NCBI GenBank assembly: GCA_022826645.1 | Contig: JAJDUM010000100.1 | Coordinates: forward strand, 62,001-126,000 | DNA from: Candidatus Poribacteria bacterium | GTDB taxonomy: Bacteria > Poribacteria > WGA-4E > PCPOR2b | Length of the DNA: 64,000 nucleotides | Reading direction: 5' to 3' | Part shown: positions 22,612-45,005 of the stretch, piece after piece | Position numbering within the stretch: the stretch's first letter is position 1 | How the letters are laid out: each line of letters opens with the position of its first letter | Translations under genes and position numbers: made by a program | Notes under the pieces: model-generated | The model's input: only the letters and a program-made list of their open reading frames with translations | Databases searched by the model: none | Told to the model about the DNA's origin: nothing

Positions 22612-24045
22612 ATGACAGATCTCCTCGATGATGCCCAGATGCAACAATTTATTACTGATGGCTATATCAGTGTTCGATCCGACTACCCTCCCGAATTTCA
22701 CCAAGACATCTATCAACAGATTGAGGCGATGTTTGAAGGTGAGGGCAATACCGGTAACAATATCTTGCCCCGCATCCCACAGATCCAGAAGGTCTTCGAT
22801 CATCCGGCGTTAAAAGGTGCCTTGACCAGCCTGCTGGGGGAAGGATACATCATGAACCCCCACCGACACTGCCATCTCAATCCTCCCGACAGCAAAGGGC
22901 AGCAATGGCATAAGGATTGTTATGTGTTTGATCACAATATGCGTCACCCCCGCTTTCAGTGGGTACTTGCGCTCTATTATCCTCAAGATACAACCGAAGA
23001 TATGGGACCTACAGGGCTGCTGCCCGGCAAGCAATTTCACAAGAAAGTTAGTAATGCCGATCCGCAACTGGCGAGCGAACCTGCGTCGCCCTTATGTGGC
23101 GAAGCCGGCACCGTCTCGCTTGTCCACTTTGACGCGTGGCACCGGGCAACGCCGAATTACAGCACGAAGAAACGATACATGCTCAAATTTCAGTTTGCGC
23201 GTATGCAGCCCCCTGAAGCACCTTCTTGGGATCATAAACGTCGTGGGTGGGAAGGCGATGCAAGCGACGAAAATCGAGCCACATCGGTAGATGTCTGGAA
23301 CTGGCTATGCGGAAACTATGCTTCGGATCCGGAGGCGTCGGGAGATACAGCGTCAGCTTTGGTGGAGGCTTTGGGTGATGAATCAGAAAGCGTCCGTCTG
23401 AACGCTGCCTATACGTTGGGGAGGATGGGGCAGTCTGTCGTGCCTGTATTAATTGATGCTATGCGGAAGGAAACCCTTGCATCGATCGAGGAAACAACTG
23501 CCAAACCCCCCGACAATCTACATGGTACCAATCCGACTGCCGGATGTGCAGCGCAAGCGCTATCCGCAATCGGTTCAGAAGCAGTTCCGGGATTGATTGA
23601 CACGTTGACGGACGAGCATTGGTGGGTTCGTGCGATGACTGTGGACGTGCTAACAAAGATTGGGCAGTCAGCGGGGGATGCTGTGCCGGTACTGATGGAA
23701 CGCGCAAATGACGAGCACTGGTGGGTACGTCGTAACGCAATTGAAGCGTTGGGGACTATTGGGTCATGCAGCCTTGACGCAACGCCGCTGCTGTCCGAAT
23801 CGTTACAGGACGAGGATTACCGGGTTCGGCGGAACGCCGCGCTTACTTTGGCGAAATTAGGGCAACCCGCGGACGACGCCATACCTGCTTTGGTGGAGAT
23901 GTTAGAGGACGAGAATCGGTACAATCGCTTTTATGCAGCAAATGCGTTGCGAGGAATTGATACCTCTGCCGCACGAGAGGCGTTGATGAATGCCCTTTTC
24001 ACTGCCCGATGGTGTTCAATCACCACGAAGGATAACCAATACTAG
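22612..24045 (+). CDS. PhyH dioxygenase fused to C-terminal HEAT repeats
   Basis: 477 residues in two parts. Residues 1-230 are a PhyH-family Fe(II)/2-oxoglutarate dioxygenase with WHKDCYV (His100, Asp102) and AWHRATPNYS (distal His177). Residues about 243-465 are HEAT/PBS-lyase repeats, recognisable by units such as DEHWWVRRNAIEALGTIG and DEDYRVRRNAALTLAKLG. The repeats should make a curved protein-binding scaffold, so the enzyme may act on, or be held to, a protein partner. ATG start behind AGAAAGGAC. The 3' end faces an aminotransferase gene. Confidence 0.9.
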   Translation: MTDLLDDAQMQQFITDGYISVRSDYPPEFHQDIYQQIEAMFEGEGNTGNNILPRIPQIQKVFDHPALKGALTSLLGEGYIMNPHRHCHLNPPDSKGQQWHKDCYVFDHNMRHPRFQWVLALYYPQDTTEDMGPTGLLPGKQFHKKVSNADPQLASEPASPLCGEAGTVSLVHFDAWHRATPNYSTKKRYMLKFQFARMQPPEAPSWDHKRRGWEGDASDENRATSVDVWNWLCGNYASDPEASGDTASALVEALGDESESVRLNAAYTLGRMGQSVVPVLIDAMRKETLASIEETTAKPPDNLHGTNPTAGCAAQALSAIGSEAVPGLIDTLTDEHWWVRAMTVDVLTKIGQSAGDAVPVLMERANDEHWWVRRNAIEALGTIGSCSLDATPLLSESLQDEDYRVRRNAALTLAKLGQPADDAIPALVEMLEDENRYNRFYAANALRGIDTSAAREALMNALFTARWCSITTKDNQY

Positions 24046-26305: not shown

Positions 26306-26517
26306 GCACATACCCCATTTCTTCCGACATAGCGAAACCATCTCAGGCTCCGGGATTGACAATCCCACGGCGCGGGTTGTGGTAGCTTTAATGTAAACGT
26401 TGAGGGCAACATCCAGCCTCCCAGTGAGACAAACTATAATTGTTTGGCAAATCACTCGTCCTTTAGTGGAGACGACGATCGCTTTTGCTGTCAAAGTTCA
26501 TTTTTGCTGCTCTTCCG

Positions 26518-28476
26518 TTAAGCAAATTCATTACCATATTTGTACATGTACCACGATGCAATACTTTGAAATGGCTTCCATTGATTAGCAATCTTCTGCA
26601 TTCCTTCAATATCATCAATGGCAATGTCATACACCTGACTGATGGTCTTTCTAAGAGCTAGATCCTGTATGGGAAATACATCTGGTCTCGCTAGGCCAAA
26701 TATCAAAAACATATTTACAGTCCAATCGCCTATCCCTTTGACGGTTTTAAGCACGGAACGAATTTGATCTTCAGTCATAGAAGATACTCTATCAAGAACT
26801 ATGTCTCCTTGTATAATTCTTTCAGACAGATCAGCAATGTATGAGTATTTACGTTGCGAAACTCCTATTGCTAAAATCTTGTCCGGTGATTTCTTGACGA
26901 AACGACGGGGAGTAATAGGCGATGGATCAAACAAAGCCCGGAATCTATGAAATATGGTGTCTGCTGCCTGTCGGGATATTTGCTGGCTAATTATCGATCC
27001 TGCTAAAAATTCAAAATGAAGCGTTTGGGGGTAAAGACTACACGGTCCAACCTGGTTTATAATTTCCCCCAAACGTTTGTCTCGCTCATGAAGATAATAA
27101 CAAATGCTACCGAAATCAGAAGATTCATTAATCTGTTGAGTTGGCATCTGAGCATTCTTAAGTAAGCCCGATTTCTGAAGCCAATCATTAACTATCTTCT
27201 GAACTTCAGTTTGATTGTTTTCTATCGCCGAAATGGAAAAATTGACAGTCGAGTTATGAGGTGAATTACTTGTGCTTGAGGCTTTATGAGTATCCATGAA
27301 CAGAGAGTCAAAAAGCGTTGGCTGATTGTCTAAATCCTCCTTTTTTTCCTTTTTCACATAATCACCCATGGGCTTGAGCCCATGAGAGAAACGATCTAGG
27401 ATTGTTGTAATCGCTTCAATGCTGTTATCAATCCCTATCCAGTTCCGTTGTAGTTCATCAGCTACAGCTAGGGTTGTTCCAGATCCCGCAAAACAATCTA
27501 AAACCAAATCCCCAGGATGGGACGAGGCTTGGATTATTCTTCGTAGTAAATCCGGATTTTTCTCTGTAGGGTAGCCGGTTATTTTGATGTTCTGGTTATG
27601 TGCATCTTTGAAGTCTAGCCAAATATCCTGCACACCGGCTCCGGGGTGTTGGTCAAGATAAACCTTGCGACGAGGATTCCCGTTCTTAGACCAGAAAATT
27701 TCACCACGCACATTCATTTTATCGAGTGTTGCTGGCGGATACTGCCAGTGTTTGCCCGGCGGTGGCATCATTCCTCGCCACGGTTTTCCTGTTTCTCCAT
27801 TCCTAGTCCCCGGTGCATGAATAGGAACTTTCATAAAACGGCGACCGGTTTCAGGTTCAACATAATGATATTCTTTTGCACTATCTTCGGATAAAGGTTC
27901 AACTGGGCGATTCCAAATATACTTGTCAGACTTTGTATAAAACAAGATCAAGTCAGCAATATTACCGTATGCCTTGCGTGTGTAATTTTTTGGATTACAC
28001 TTCTTTCGAACAATTAAATTGCGATAATTTGAAGAACCAAATACTTCATCCATTATCAATTTCATTTCAAACATCATCTTATCATCAAGATGAAGGTAAA
28101 TTGATCCTTGTGGTGATAATAGCTCGTGCAGAAGTATTAGCCTCTCCCGAAGGAATTCGATGAAATCACTGCCTGTTAATGAATCGGAATACGCTTTTTT
28201 TTGTTTCCTAGAAACGAAAGTGCTCTGTGTTGCGAAAGGCGGATCTATGTAAATGAGTGAAACTCTACCTTTCAATTGTTTTTCTTTCAATAGATATTGA
28301 AGTAGGAGTAGGTTGTCACCGAAATAGAGATCATTTCTAGATGAAGCAGTATGCAGCGTGCAGACTGCGGGAGATGGTGTTTCCAAAATTGAGGATATGG
28401 GTTTCTTTTTCTCGTATTCGAGACGCACGGAAGCGGTCTTTGCGCTGTTTGACCTTTTTGGGATACCTATAGCCAT
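26518..28476 (-). CDS. Site-specific DNA methyltransferase fused to AlkA-type DNA glycosylase
   Basis: 652 residues. Part 1 (about 45-370) is a beta-class amino-methyltransferase: motif IV IDPPF (78-81 for DPPF) precedes motif I DCFAGSGTT (328-334), so it modifies adenine N6 or cytosine N4. Part 2 (about 455-652) is a helix-hairpin-helix GPD DNA glycosylase of the AlkA/3-methyladenine type: SIISQQISRQAA, KTVKGIGDWTVNMFLI (hairpin, 578-593) and FPIQDLALRK with the expected catalytic Asp605. A polar linker joins them. ATG start behind AAGGAGGAATT. It lies nine bases after the endonuclease gene. Confidence 0.9.
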   Translation of the reverse strand: MAIGIPKRSNSAKTASVRLEYEKKKPISSILETPSPAVCTLHTASSRNDLYFGDNLLLLQYLLKEKQLKGRVSLIYIDPPFATQSTFVSRKQKKAYSDSLTGSDFIEFLRERLILLHELLSPQGSIYLHLDDKMMFEMKLIMDEVFGSSNYRNLIVRKKCNPKNYTRKAYGNIADLILFYTKSDKYIWNRPVEPLSEDSAKEYHYVEPETGRRFMKVPIHAPGTRNGETGKPWRGMMPPPGKHWQYPPATLDKMNVRGEIFWSKNGNPRRKVYLDQHPGAGVQDIWLDFKDAHNQNIKITGYPTEKNPDLLRRIIQASSHPGDLVLDCFAGSGTTLAVADELQRNWIGIDNSIEAITTILDRFSHGLKPMGDYVKKEKKEDLDNQPTLFDSLFMDTHKASSTSNSPHNSTVNFSISAIENNQTEVQKIVNDWLQKSGLLKNAQMPTQQINESSDFGSICYYLHERDKRLGEIINQVGPCSLYPQTLHFEFLAGSIISQQISRQAADTIFHRFRALFDPSPITPRRFVKKSPDKILAIGVSQRKYSYIADLSERIIQGDIVLDRVSSMTEDQIRSVLKTVKGIGDWTVNMFLIFGLARPDVFPIQDLALRKTISQVYDIAIDDIEGMQKIANQWKPFQSIASWYMYKYGNEFA

Positions 28477-28485
28477 AATTCCTCC

Positions 28486-29355
28486 TTACGATAATAACCA
28501 GTCAAGCGTGATTCTTTCCGTGACCATTCGTAAGGTGACAACCTTTACAAGGCCAGGCCATGAATCTTCTATGTATGTATAGTCTTGCCACATTGACCCG
28601 AGTAAAAGACCGGGACCATCATTTAAAAAAATAACTTTAATCGGTAGACCTTGCTGGTGTGCATAGCCTAGCACCTCATTGGCACAATCTCGGTATTGCC
28701 CGGTTCGATCGTCCTCTTGAGCTCCCCCACGGTCGGAATCATATCGAGCCAAACCAACTGCTACGGGCGTTTCATTGTGGTATAGAACAAAGTCTACTGG
28801 ACGATCCGGCTTAGGATAGCCTTCAAATATCTCGCCCAAAATTACATCTTTACCGGCTCGTTCAGGCCCAATAATATACAAATCTTTGTAATTCTCACGG
28901 ATAATTGTGAACAATCTTTCAGTAAGATCGTAGCCTTTCTTCCCGCGATCCTTGTATTCCCACAGGATAGCACAAAGTGCTTCATCTGGCATTGGTCGAG
29001 AATCAAAACATGATTGAACTTCAGTTATTGCGCGAAAACGTTGACCAAACTGCTCACAAATATATTGTGCGGCAGTCTTTTTTTTCAGCATTTCCACAGG
29101 AGTATCAGGACTTACGTACTTTCGGAAGACGCGGCAAAGTTGAATTCTCATCCATTGAGGCTTCGTTTCAGAAATAGCAAGAAATAAGTCGCTTGATGAG
29201 TGAGACTCTTTAAGCAATTGACCGAAGGTCACGAGAACGGGTTTATAGAGTTCACAGGCAAGTGGCAAGATGTCTGGATAATACTCGCCTGCAGACAAGG
29301 TAATCCATAGATGTCCATCTTCTCTGTATTCAGAAAAAGTCTTCTCCTTTGCCAC
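28486..29355 (-). CDS. Putative type II restriction endonuclease
   Basis: 289 residues with no membrane segment. Residues 162-222 carry the likely nuclease core: IGPERAGKDV, then RPVDFVLY (Asp188) and VAVGLARYDSDRGGAQEDDRTG. I read this as a restriction-endonuclease-like fold from these signatures and from the adjoining methyltransferase gene; the canonical E-x-K is not obvious, so the exact catalytic set is open. The start is a GTG at 29355 with GGAGG eight bases before it. It is first in the two-gene operon with the methyltransferase-glycosylase. Confidence 0.7.
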   Translation of the reverse strand: MAKEKTFSEYREDGHLWITLSAGEYYPDILPLACELYKPVLVTFGQLLKESHSSSDLFLAISETKPQWMRIQLCRVFRKYVSPDTPVEMLKKKTAAQYICEQFGQRFRAITEVQSCFDSRPMPDEALCAILWEYKDRGKKGYDLTERLFTIIRENYKDLYIIGPERAGKDVILGEIFEGYPKPDRPVDFVLYHNETPVAVGLARYDSDRGGAQEDDRTGQYRDCANEVLGYAHQQGLPIKVIFLNDGPGLLLGSMWQDYTYIEDSWPGLVKVVTLRMVTERITLDWLLS

Positions 29356-29511
29356 TGATCAGACCTCCAGTATTTTCTATGCCTAACTTACATTAAGCGA
29401 AACTACCATCTATTTTCAACTTTGGGTAAAACGCTTATCTTAGCACCATTCACTCAAGGCGTTCACTTTGTTCACACCTTGTACCTCCTGCATCTCTTCT
29501 CTAATTTTCCA

Positions 29512-42514: not shown

Positions 42515-42814
42515 AAAAGCTGTACGTCGTTGGGCAGAAGTCATCGATCAAAACCGAAAAGATGTGCTGCGCATTGGCTACTTTGGTTCTTACGCGCGAG
42601 GGGAGTAGGAAGTGACCTTGATCTCATCGTCATCGTTAAACACTCCGATTTGCCTTTTGAAAGACGAAATATCAATTGGAATGTCGCCGCACTGCCGGTC
42701 CCTGTTGATCTACTGATCTATACTCAGGCGGAATGGGATAAACTTCGTCCGCGAAGATTTTATTCAACGGTGATGCGAGAAGCTATTTGGGTTTTAGATG
42801 GGGATCCAAAATAA
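42483..42814 (+). pseudogene. MNT-type nucleotidyltransferase antitoxin gene with a frameshift
   Basis: A frame from GTG 42483, overlapping the HEPN 3' end, encodes VLKWPDVQTVEKAVRRWAEV and FGSYARGE, then stops at 42606. The rest of the minimal nucleotidyltransferase (VGSDLDLIVIV, PVPVDLLIYTQAEWDKL, REAIWVLD) continues in another frame to 42814. The GS-x-ARG...SDxDL motif is split at the break. Loss of one copy of a 7-base repeat (GGGGAGT) would account for it. With its HEPN partner also broken, the pair looks dead unless recoding occurs. Confidence 0.82.
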
Positions 42815-42845
42815 CCGGTGCTCAGTTGTGTTAAGAGGAAGAATT

Positions 42846-43874
42846 TTGCAAAACAGAAATGCTACTGACGACCTACCGCGTGATCAGATTCTGTGCGGGG
42901 ATAATCTGGAGTTGATTCGAGAACTCCCGGATCGCTCTATTCAACTCGTTATCACCTCACCTCCCTATTTTCAACAACGAGACTACGGTGGTGGTATGGG
43001 CAATGAGGCGTGTTTAGAAGAATATCTTGACAGCTTGATATCCCTATTCCGTGAGTGTGTGCGCGTTGTGAGAGATGACGGAAGTCTTGTGTTTAATTTG
43101 GGGGATAAATATATAGATAGTAGCTTACTTCTTGTGCCATACCGCTTTGCGATAGGAGCGACAGAAACGGGATTGGTGAAGTTGGTCAATGATGTGACGT
43201 GGATAAAGAAAAATCCGACACCGCGCCAGTTTAGGCGGCGTTTGGTCAGCAGCACCGAGCCGTTTTTTCATTTCGCTAAAACCGAGGATTACTTTTACAA
43301 TCCCGATGCTTTCATGGCAGACGAAACCCCGCCCAAGAAATCGCAATCTCAAGGTATGAATGTAGGACGGAAATATTTTGAGTTAATTGATCAATCGGAT
43401 TTATCCGAAGACGAAAAACATAATGCCCGTGACGCCTTAGAAGAGGCAATCCAAGAAGTTCAGCGTGGGGAGATCGCTGGATTACGGATGAAAATTCGTG
43501 GTATCCACGCTGAAGCATTTGGTGGACAAGATGGCGGGCGCAAGATTCAGATAGAAAAAAATGGCTTCACGCTTATTCGATTACGAGGCAACAAACTCAA
43601 ACGAGATGTGATTGAGCACTCCGTTGAGTCAATTAAAGGAATCAGGCATCCAGCAATTTATCCGGTAAAAATTGTTGAGGAATTTTTATACCTTCTCACA
43701 CGCCCTGGCGATGTTGTGTTGGACCCCTTCATCGGTTCTGGCTCTACAGCTGTCGCCTGTAAACAGCTCGGACGGTATTTCATCGGCTATGATATTAACC
43801 CTGAGTATTGCAGGTACGCCCGAAGTCGTGTTGTAGAAGCACCGAGTAAAACCTTGACCTTTATTCGAGAATAA
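42846..43874 (+). CDS. Site-specific DNA methyltransferase, N4-cytosine type
   Basis: 342 residues. Motif IV TSPPY (37-41) precedes motif I DPFIGSGST (293-301); the Ser-Pro-Pro-Tyr form points to N4-methylcytosine. A long target-recognition region lies between. The start is taken at TTG 42846 with GAGGA six bases before it; an in-frame ATG at 42798 lies inside the antitoxin remnant and lacks a ribosome site. The endonuclease gene follows after three bases, so this is the modification half of a type II system. Confidence 0.9.
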   Translation: MQNRNATDDLPRDQILCGDNLELIRELPDRSIQLVITSPPYFQQRDYGGGMGNEACLEEYLDSLISLFRECVRVVRDDGSLVFNLGDKYIDSSLLLVPYRFAIGATETGLVKLVNDVTWIKKNPTPRQFRRRLVSSTEPFFHFAKTEDYFYNPDAFMADETPPKKSQSQGMNVGRKYFELIDQSDLSEDEKHNARDALEEAIQEVQRGEIAGLRMKIRGIHAEAFGGQDGGRKIQIEKNGFTLIRLRGNKLKRDVIEHSVESIKGIRHPAIYPVKIVEEFLYLLTRPGDVVLDPFIGSGSTAVACKQLGRYFIGYDINPEYCRYARSRVVEAPSKTLTFIRE

Positions 43875-43877
43875 TCC

Positions 43878-45005
43878 ATGAAAAACCCTCGCTTAATATT
43901 GGAAGAAGTATATCAAAATGCGCATGTAGAGCATAATATACTATCAGTGCTTTCACCAACAAAACGAGAATGGGTTAAAGTGGTCGTAGCGGGTGCAGAA
44001 TCACAAAAAGCAGTCCTTACTGTTCTTGTAACATCGTTGGTAAAAAAGATTGAGACACCTTCGCAAGATATTCGATATCATAAGGTGGAGTTACCTAACG
44101 GCTATTCTGGACGTTCATTCGATACTGAGTATGTTACCCCGTTTATTCGAAAGAAATTCTCAAGACTGGCGATGAGGGAAAGCGGTTGGCTCACACGTTC
44201 GCTAGAGCAAGTTCATGCTTTCACATTGGATTTTCCGGGGAAGATTCGGAACGCTTCTGTGAAGAACGCTTTTCTACAGATCTTGAATGATATTGAAGAA
44301 AACCAAGCAAGTCCAGAAGAGTATCTATTAGCTCTCTTTGAACTGCTGATTGATTACATGGAAAGTTATGTTGCTAATCCAGTATTGAGAGAAGGAAGGG
44401 ACTCTATCTTGATTGAAAATATCATTGAAATGTTAAAAGTCCACTTCTTTCATTCTTATGGGGTTTCGGGCGCATCACGACTTCCGGTCCTGGCTATTTA
44501 TTCTGCGTATGAGTTACTCATGCGTTATGATCGCTACATAGGTAAGGAACTCTGTCCGTTAAGAAGCCACACTACATCTGATACTAGATCCTCCGGCATC
44601 GGTGACATTGAAGTGCTAGATGAACAAGGGGACTTCTTTGAAGGGGTTGAGATTAAACATGGGATTCCCATTACGCCAATGCTGGTCCAAAATGCCTTTG
44701 ATAAGTTTATTACCACAGGAGTTTGCCGATACTATTTACTTACAACAGCAGAGCCAGAAGTGGAAGATGTGGCTGCTGTTAGAGAACTGATATACAGATT
44801 TCGCAGCGAACATAGGTGTGAAATTATTGTCAATGGTATTATTCCTTCGCTAAAATATTATCTGCGTCTACTGAATGATCCGGTGATGTTCTTGGATCGC
44901 TACGGAAACAATATGCAAGCTGACTTTAACGTTAGCACCGACATCAAGCGCATCCATTTGCAACGCTGGGATGAATTATTGGTTTCTGTCCCATACCGAG
45001 TATGA
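43878..45005 (+). CDS. Type II restriction endonuclease, PD-(D/E)xK fold
   Basis: 375 residues. SSGIGDIEVLDEQG followed by EGVEIKHG supplies Asp243, Glu258 and Lys260, a standard PD-(D/E)xK nuclease site. The N-terminal 200 residues are helical and probably read the target. No family name or recognition site can be given. It starts three bases after the methyltransferase stop and has a weak ribosome site, consistent with translational coupling that keeps nuclease behind methylase. Slightly more AT-rich than the genes around it. Confidence 0.82.
   Translation: MKNPRLILEEVYQNAHVEHNILSVLSPTKREWVKVVVAGAESQKAVLTVLVTSLVKKIETPSQDIRYHKVELPNGYSGRSFDTEYVTPFIRKKFSRLAMRESGWLTRSLEQVHAFTLDFPGKIRNASVKNAFLQILNDIEENQASPEEYLLALFELLIDYMESYVANPVLREGRDSILIENIIEMLKVHFFHSYGVSGASRLPVLAIYSAYELLMRYDRYIGKELCPLRSHTTSDTRSSGIGDIEVLDEQGDFFEGVEIKHGIPITPMLVQNAFDKFITTGVCRYYLLTTAEPEVEDVAAVRELIYRFRSEHRCEIIVNGIIPSLKYYLRLLNDPVMFLDRYGNNMQADFNVSTDIKRIHLQRWDELLVSVPYRV

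Follow-up and report, generated by a model that had tools for sequence, protein, structure and literature searches.

A DNA methyltransferase joined to a Mag/AlkA2-type DNA glycosylase in a predicted BstEII-type restriction-modification system

The window analysed here is a 64,000-nucleotide stretch of contig JAJDUM010000100.1 from a Candidatus Poribacteria bacterium. On its minus strand lies an open reading frame (ORF) of 652 codons that begins with ATG at position 28476 and ends with a stop at 26518, with no internal stop codons. It encodes a DNA methyltransferase and a DNA glycosylase in a single polypeptide chain, and this fusion is real. The initial annotation, which gave no strand, had described one intact frame joining the two enzymes, with a catalytic aspartate in the glycosylase. 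That description agrees with what we find: both domains match Pfam families above the curated cut-offs, and an aspartate that is presumed to be catalytic is present at residue 605. The match to N6_N4_Mtase (PF01555) covers residues 72-359 (E 3.3e-49; 168.3 bits, cut-off 26.7), and that to HhH-GPD (PF00730, the helix-hairpin-helix glycosylases) covers residues 493-624 (E 2.1e-10; 41.3 bits, cut-off 26.2).

In the methyltransferase half motif IV (DPPF) lies ahead of motif I (FAGSGT), an order that we take to place the enzyme in the beta class. The DPP of motif IV is unchanged in all seven aligned methyltransferase rows. The top PADLOC family for the protein is a type II methyltransferase model (residues 8-384, E 1.1e-141). 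The best relatives of known structure in the PDB are adenine-specific (Mod, EcoP15I, MboIIA and CcrM), with N4-cytosine enzymes scoring lower; because the nearest solved structures are adenine-specific, methylation of N6-adenine is likelier than that of N4-cytosine.

The glycosylase half can be placed in the Mag/AlkA2 group of alkylbase HhH-GPD enzymes. A profile of the domain and 15 relatives, searched against the PDB, matched 2h56 (E 6e-59), Schizosaccharomyces pombe Mag2, Mag1 and DrAlkA2 (2yg8, E 3.1e-44); the 3-methyladenine glycosylase II of the AlkA kind (1diz) was weaker in the same search (E 3.3e-15). Asp605 is aligned with an Asp of DrAlkA2, and is invariant in a 16-row alignment that comprises six fused glycosylases and ten unfused ones. 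In the hairpin VKGIGDWT residue 584 varies among the six fused proteins, and the other seven positions are invariant.

Nine bases upstream of the fusion gene, and on the same strand, is a gene whose product matches the structure of the restriction endonuclease (REase) BstEII (PDB 9ibq) over residues 5-287 of 289, with E 1.9e-87. Because this upstream gene is homologous to BstEII, we assign the module as a BstEII-type type II restriction-modification (R-M) system. Its recognition site is presumably GGTNACC, carried over from BstEII by homology. The endonuclease gene that the initial annotation had seen alongside is the BstEII homologue, and the suggestion of an R-M variant is borne out. The REase has no match in Pfam, PADLOC or NCBIfam (E up to 1), nor in PHROGs; since it has none, such a protein may well be called hypothetical by annotation pipelines, as in the records of pBSO1 and of an Acinetobacter plasmid.

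The same fusion is found in other genomes. Genome contigs and viral contigs were each scanned with a methyltransferase alignment, up to a limit of 80 loci per scan. A glycosylase in frame was present at two of these 160 loci, in Nitrospira sp. SB0677_bin_15 (locus L084) and in an uncultured Candidatus Entotheonella (L085), which are the two top matches of the genome-contig scan; none of the 80 viral loci kept has a glycosylase. The names of the matches hint at bacteria that we take to be sponge-associated. In a glycosylase search of 196 genomes related to that of L084, 78 had a match that reached E 1e-25. The four best (G097, i.e. the genome of L084, G111, G244 and G174) belong to open frames of 658-678 codons, all fused and all following a BstEII homologue, and the next match has 42% identity and lies in a 216-codon frame. 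A whole-protein match at E 1e-90 or better was found in 9 of 395 genomes sampled from the phylum of L084; these are the same four fusions, matched at full length, and five frames of 363-380 codons in which the methyltransferase part alone was matched, with no glycosylase match in the loci returned.

Six fused genes are therefore known including that of the window, and each lies directly downstream of a BstEII homologue (6/6), although the REase gene beside the fusion in G097 looks frameshifted. The other five are open frames of 658-722 codons without internal stops, and both domains are confirmed by Pfam in all five. Homologues thus adjoin REase genes, and they are not always split and unlinked, as fused and REase-linked copies exist in five other genomes. 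Because the same two-domain ORF recurs in those five, the fusion is not an assembly accident of the window genome.

The distribution is restricted. No other fused gene was found among 97 relatives of the window's genome, and among 241 genomes related to that of Entotheonella the glycosylase was found at E 1e-45 in none besides that genome. No fused copy was seen in plasmids or phages, as none of the 419 plasmid records or 218 phage records with a match has one place covering at least 80% of the fusion query. A glycosylase of this group is present at seven viral loci. A glycosylase is fused or adjacent at 6 of 61 BstEII- or Tsp45I-type loci (window excluded) compared with 0 of 113 other methyltransferase loci, a count that is biased in that L279, L280 and L281 were fetched for having the glycosylase and L081 was added after one was seen there; at least 700 bases of downstream sequence were present for 57 of the 61 and 99 of the 113. 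No split glycosylase copy was found within 1.5 kb at any BstEII-type locus seen. No description of a methyltransferase-glycosylase fusion was found in the literature searched, with most subscription journals outside its scope.

We note also that several REase genes look broken or shortened beside open methyltransferase frames. These are L084 4890-5995 and L089 5061-5903, of BstEII type, and L100 495-1364 and L110 2059-2259, of Tsp45I type.

In the tree of methyltransferases (57 rows, quick tree method) the six fused enzymes form one clade, with a Shimodaira-Hasegawa-like approximate likelihood ratio test (SH-aLRT) support of 100. They lie in turn within a 22-row BstEII-type clade, also supported at 100, whose other rows are 14 unfused enzymes paired with a BstEII gene and two for which none was found; all 26 Tsp45I-type methyltransferases fall outside it. 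The REases of five fused systems (i.e. excluding the frameshifted one) form a single clade among 12 rows (96/95), and among 54 rows of glycosylases those of the six fused proteins group in one clade with the standalone enzymes of G006 and G009 (98/93). The window is the first branch of the fused systems in all three trees, with support of 90 (methyltransferase), 87/88 (REase) and 96/91 (glycosylase). Its identity to the other fused systems is 74-80% in the REase, 67-69% in the methyltransferase and 47-51% in the glycosylase. A single fusion event, followed by joint descent or joint transfer of the three parts, explains the pattern of the three trees.

In the fused proteins the interdomain stretch can be aligned with the poorly conserved C-terminal tail of the unfused M.BstEII-type enzymes, so that the glycosylase was added behind a complete methyltransferase. 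For the pair L084 and L279 the ratio of non-synonymous to synonymous substitution rates (dN/dS), estimated by a simple counting method, is 0.078 in the methyltransferase, 0.275 in the tail and 0.075 in the glycosylase (dS 0.15-0.34 by part); this was the one usable pair, since in the other 14 synonymous changes have reached saturation, or come close to it in the tail. In this pair the glycosylase half is under purifying selection, as tightly constrained as its methyltransferase partner, and is not drifting.

The N-terminus of the standalone glycosylase of G006 carries a methyltransferase tail, with 45% identity over 33 residues to that of L084 (E 4.8e-5, the space searched being small), and the protein is nested inside the fused clade. 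Because it keeps the tail and is so nested, the best reading is of a fused gene minus its methyltransferase half; upstream of it no remnant of a methyltransferase or REase was found. The standalone glycosylase of G009 lacks the tail, and from its place in the tree it perhaps also descends from the fusion. We considered whether the methyltransferase had by chance been joined to a gene already resident in the host of the window. This is ruled out by the presence of the same fusion in other lineages, and also by the nesting within the fused clade of the closest unfused glycosylases (G006 and G009), the former with its tail.

The locus is variable within the genus. Three same-genus genomes (G003, G004 and G002) lack the module, and their flanking genes are for the most part collinear with those of the window; the matches end at 26319, 26317 and 26345, and restart at 29462, 29504 and 29506, respectively. 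G001 carries a deletion scar, in which the final 33-35 codons of the glycosylase are left and everything else, through to the REase, is gone; a short shared sequence marks the break. Because these last codons remain, the glycosylase was evidently once at the same site in the lineage of G001, and from its position the whole module probably was too. In G005, a fifth same-genus genome, the two flanking genes searched gave distant matches alone. Gain and loss of this sort are usual for R-M systems. The coordinates of the module and of related features are collected in Table 1.

Table 1. Features of the fused gene, its module and related loci. Positions are those of the window unless another locus is named.
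Feature	Position	Strand	Basis
Fused methyltransferase-glycosylase gene, 652 aa	26518..28476	-	ORF, Pfam, five fused homologues
Methyltransferase domain, residues 1-365 (PF01555)	27382..28476	-	Pfam, PADLOC, PDB relatives
Motif IV DPPF, residues 78-81	28234..28245	-	Sequence, alignment
Motif I FAGSGT, residues 329-334	27475..27492	-	Sequence, alignment
Residues 366-450, native M.BstEII-type C-terminal tail, acting as linker	27127..27381	-	Alignment with unfused enzymes, looser constraint
Glycosylase domain, residues 451-652 (HhH-GPD, Mag/AlkA2 type)	26521..27126	-	Pfam, PDB matches
Helix-hairpin-helix VKGIGDWT, residues 579-586	26719..26742	-	Alignment of six fused proteins
Presumed catalytic Asp605 codon	26662..26664	-	Invariance, alignment with 2yg8
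BstEII-type restriction endonuclease, 289 aa, GTG start	28486..29355	-	9ibq match
Approximate extent of R-M module	26320..29505		Missing from three same-genus genomes; borders vary by up to about 45 bases
Deletion scar in G001	L075 4408-4512; window 26521-26620 and 29446		Comparison with window
Standalone glycosylase of G006 with M.BstEII tail	L080 9024-9872	-	Tail match, tree

A second link between a methyltransferase and a glycosylase is seen in the distant genome G092 (L081), where the gene order is a Tsp45I REase (PF06300, E 7e-120), a related methyltransferase and, as a gene of its own, a glycosylase of the same group. Assuming that the TTG start is correct, the gap between the last two genes is TAG plus 30 bases. 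This is suggestive of an independent second link. G536, the other sampled genome of that genus, gave no match at E 1e-20, and at the other Tsp45I-type loci of the set, some with short flanks, no glycosylase was found within 1.5 kb.

Two other features of the window may be recorded. At 22612-24045 on the plus strand a single 477-residue protein has a PhyH dioxygenase domain followed by HEAT repeats, and is 90% identical in G003. A second R-M-like pair lies at 42798-45005 on the plus strand, with an N6_N4_Mtase gene (42798-43874) followed 3 bases on by a gene for 375 residues; the latter has no Pfam family above the cut-off and no PADLOC or PDB match, and is perhaps an unknown restriction endonuclease.

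We propose that this is a BstEII-type R-M system whose methyltransferase once gained a complete alkylbase glycosylase, which would excise alkylated bases as a form of damage control in cis; we put the probability of this at roughly 0.45. The REase would restrict and the methyltransferase protect, as in BstEII. DrAlkA2 acts on 3-methyladenine, 7-methylguanine, 1-methyladenine and 3-methylcytosine (excerpt of PMC5128194), and yeast Mag1 excises 3-methylcytosine and, slowly, 1-methyladenine (excerpt of PMC6746446). The glycosylase half would be expected to remove N-alkylated bases of this kind, and the products of excision would be handed to base excision repair of the host. Damage control in cis is proposed because the methyltransferase may at times place its methyl group on an incorrect base or ring nitrogen; the tethered glycosylase might then patrol the DNA on which the methyltransferase works. 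Repair of off-target alkylation, which the initial annotation had raised, is plausible; repair of the methyltransferase's own side products is perhaps the role of the fusion, and the cost of self-modification would thus be lowered for a host that keeps the module.

A number of observations weigh against repair in cis. No evidence was found for an N6-adenine methyltransferase making 1-methyladenine or the like, 14 related BstEII systems have an unfused methyltransferase and no glycosylase, and the dN/dS values come from one pair and a simple counting method. Some relatives of the glycosylase, S. pombe Mag2 among them, may bind lesions but not excise them. The glycosylase has outlived the methyltransferase in G006 and perhaps G009, and this standalone survival suggests that it is useful in general and has no need to be coupled. 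A lack of AlkB was considered as the driver of fusion and is not supported, which also counts against the proposal: AlkB-like genes (PF13532) are present in three of the six fused hosts (G000, G111 and G098), and were not found in G097, G244 and G174.

The main rival is that a general alkylation-repair enzyme was fused by chance, so that the module is kept for a benefit to any host and the tether itself is functionless. We consider this less likely than repair in cis, though it would account for the retention of the glycosylase alone in G006 and perhaps G009, with no trace of its former partners upstream in G006, and for the loose constraint on the tail between the domains. Against it, an intact fusion persists in the lineage of the window, in Entotheonella and in four genomes that share one phylum (Nitrospirota, as taken from L084); split copies within 1.5 kb are absent from every BstEII-type locus seen, and there is the second, independent link in G092. 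It is also conceivable that the glycosylase forms a second arm of defence, attacking modified phage bases that resist BstEII and leaving abasic sites behind, much as Brig1 and Brig3 do. DNA glycosylases are indeed known in anti-phage defence (excerpts of PMC11078745 and PMC13160076), and this one sits in a defence module. We nevertheless find such a role improbable, since the structural neighbours of Brig1 in the excerpted account are uracil DNA glycosylases and not the alkylbase HhH group, and no defence or phage family among the matches listed falls on the glycosylase half: the best 25 of 67 PADLOC families and all nine PHROGs matches have their strongest stretch within residues 8-428. A Brig-type, i.e. 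uracil-DNA-glycosylase-like, identity of the domain does not agree with its sequence, which is of the HhH-GPD kind and matches relatives of known structure at E 6e-59.

The glycosylase domain might alternatively act as a sensor, binding damaged or flipped bases without cutting and so positioning or regulating the methyltransferase. The invariance of Asp605 and of seven of the eight hairpin positions in the six fused proteins argues against this, and we judge it less probable again than a role in defence. The initial annotation had suggested that bases of mismodified DNA are excised as a second cleavage route, in comparison with R.PabI; restriction of this kind might act on unmethylated sites as well. 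A glycosylase encoded together with a methyltransferase invites that comparison, but the domain is HhH-GPD of Mag/AlkA2 type, and the module retains a conventional BstEII-type endonuclease that is its least diverged part (74-80% identity). In a Pfam scan at E up to 1 the whole protein matched N6_N4_Mtase, HhH-GPD and, below threshold, Cons_hypoth95, leaving HhH-GPD as the sole match in the C-terminal part; the presence of an R.PabI model in the library was unconfirmed. We give such a mechanism hardly any credence. The two-enzyme chain and the R-M variant stand from the earlier interpretation, and the second cleavage route is not supported.

The occurrence of the fusion in other, distantly related bacteria suggests a methylase that carries its own clean-up tool. 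If repair in cis is true, damage to the genome from self-methylation would be a hidden cost in accounting for the frequent gain and loss of R-M systems, and such turnover is visible at the window's locus, with a deletion scar in one same-genus genome and an empty site in three. Nothing on damage by bacterial amino-methyltransferases was met in the literature, where no search was aimed at that alone. A natural fusion in several lineages, together with unfused siblings, makes the question of damage caused by bacterial methyltransferases directly testable. We can tentatively go further, though we hold it less likely than not, and regard the protein as the first prokaryotic DNA methyltransferase known to us with built-in repair of its own damage. 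In that case N6-adenine (or N4-cytosine) methyltransferases would produce toxic methylations of ring nitrogens at a rate that rewards a tethered glycosylase, and the Tsp45I-type system of G092 would represent a second independent solution.

The module may be compared with several known systems. In pBSO1 of Geobacillus stearothermophilus ATCC 12980 the BstEII-type methyltransferase and REase are 58-60% and 51% identical to those of the window, and the genes are adjacent in both; however, the pBSO1 methyltransferase stops after the tail, without a glycosylase, and its REase gene is on the opposite strand. The same pairing without a glycosylase occurs on an Acinetobacter seifertii plasmid (methyltransferase 49%, REase 33% identical). 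The Tsp45I-type system of G092 resembles that of the window in having a glycosylase directly downstream (methyltransferase 50%, glycosylase 35% identical), but differs in the family of its REase (PF06300) and in having a separate glycosylase gene, and is seen in one genome alone. The Mag/AlkA2 enzymes (2h56, Mag2, Mag1 and DrAlkA2) match nearly the whole of the glycosylase domain, in which the hairpin and Asp are kept; they are chains of 217-233 residues, whereas in the window the domain forms the C-terminal end of a longer chain that begins with a DNA methyltransferase.

Two further systems couple DNA methylation with repair. The eukaryotic DNA methyltransferases (DNMTs) and the repair enzyme ALKB2 are separate genes. 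Mig.MthI accompanies an R-M system; it is a MutY-like enzyme acting on T/G, encoded by a separate gene in a 5-methylcytosine system. It is, like the glycosylase of the window, an HhH enzyme, and it mends a side effect of DNA methylation, namely deaminated 5-methylcytosine (excerpt of PMC2714593). DNMTs make 3-methylcytosine as a by-product when the N3 of cytosine is methylated in error, and they co-evolve with ALKB2, the presence of the one tracking that of the other (excerpt of PMC9246332). This is similar to what we propose here in that a methyltransferase is paired with repair of its own alkylation damage, but the repair enzyme is a dioxygenase rather than a glycosylase, and the methyltransferases are 5-methylcytosine enzymes.
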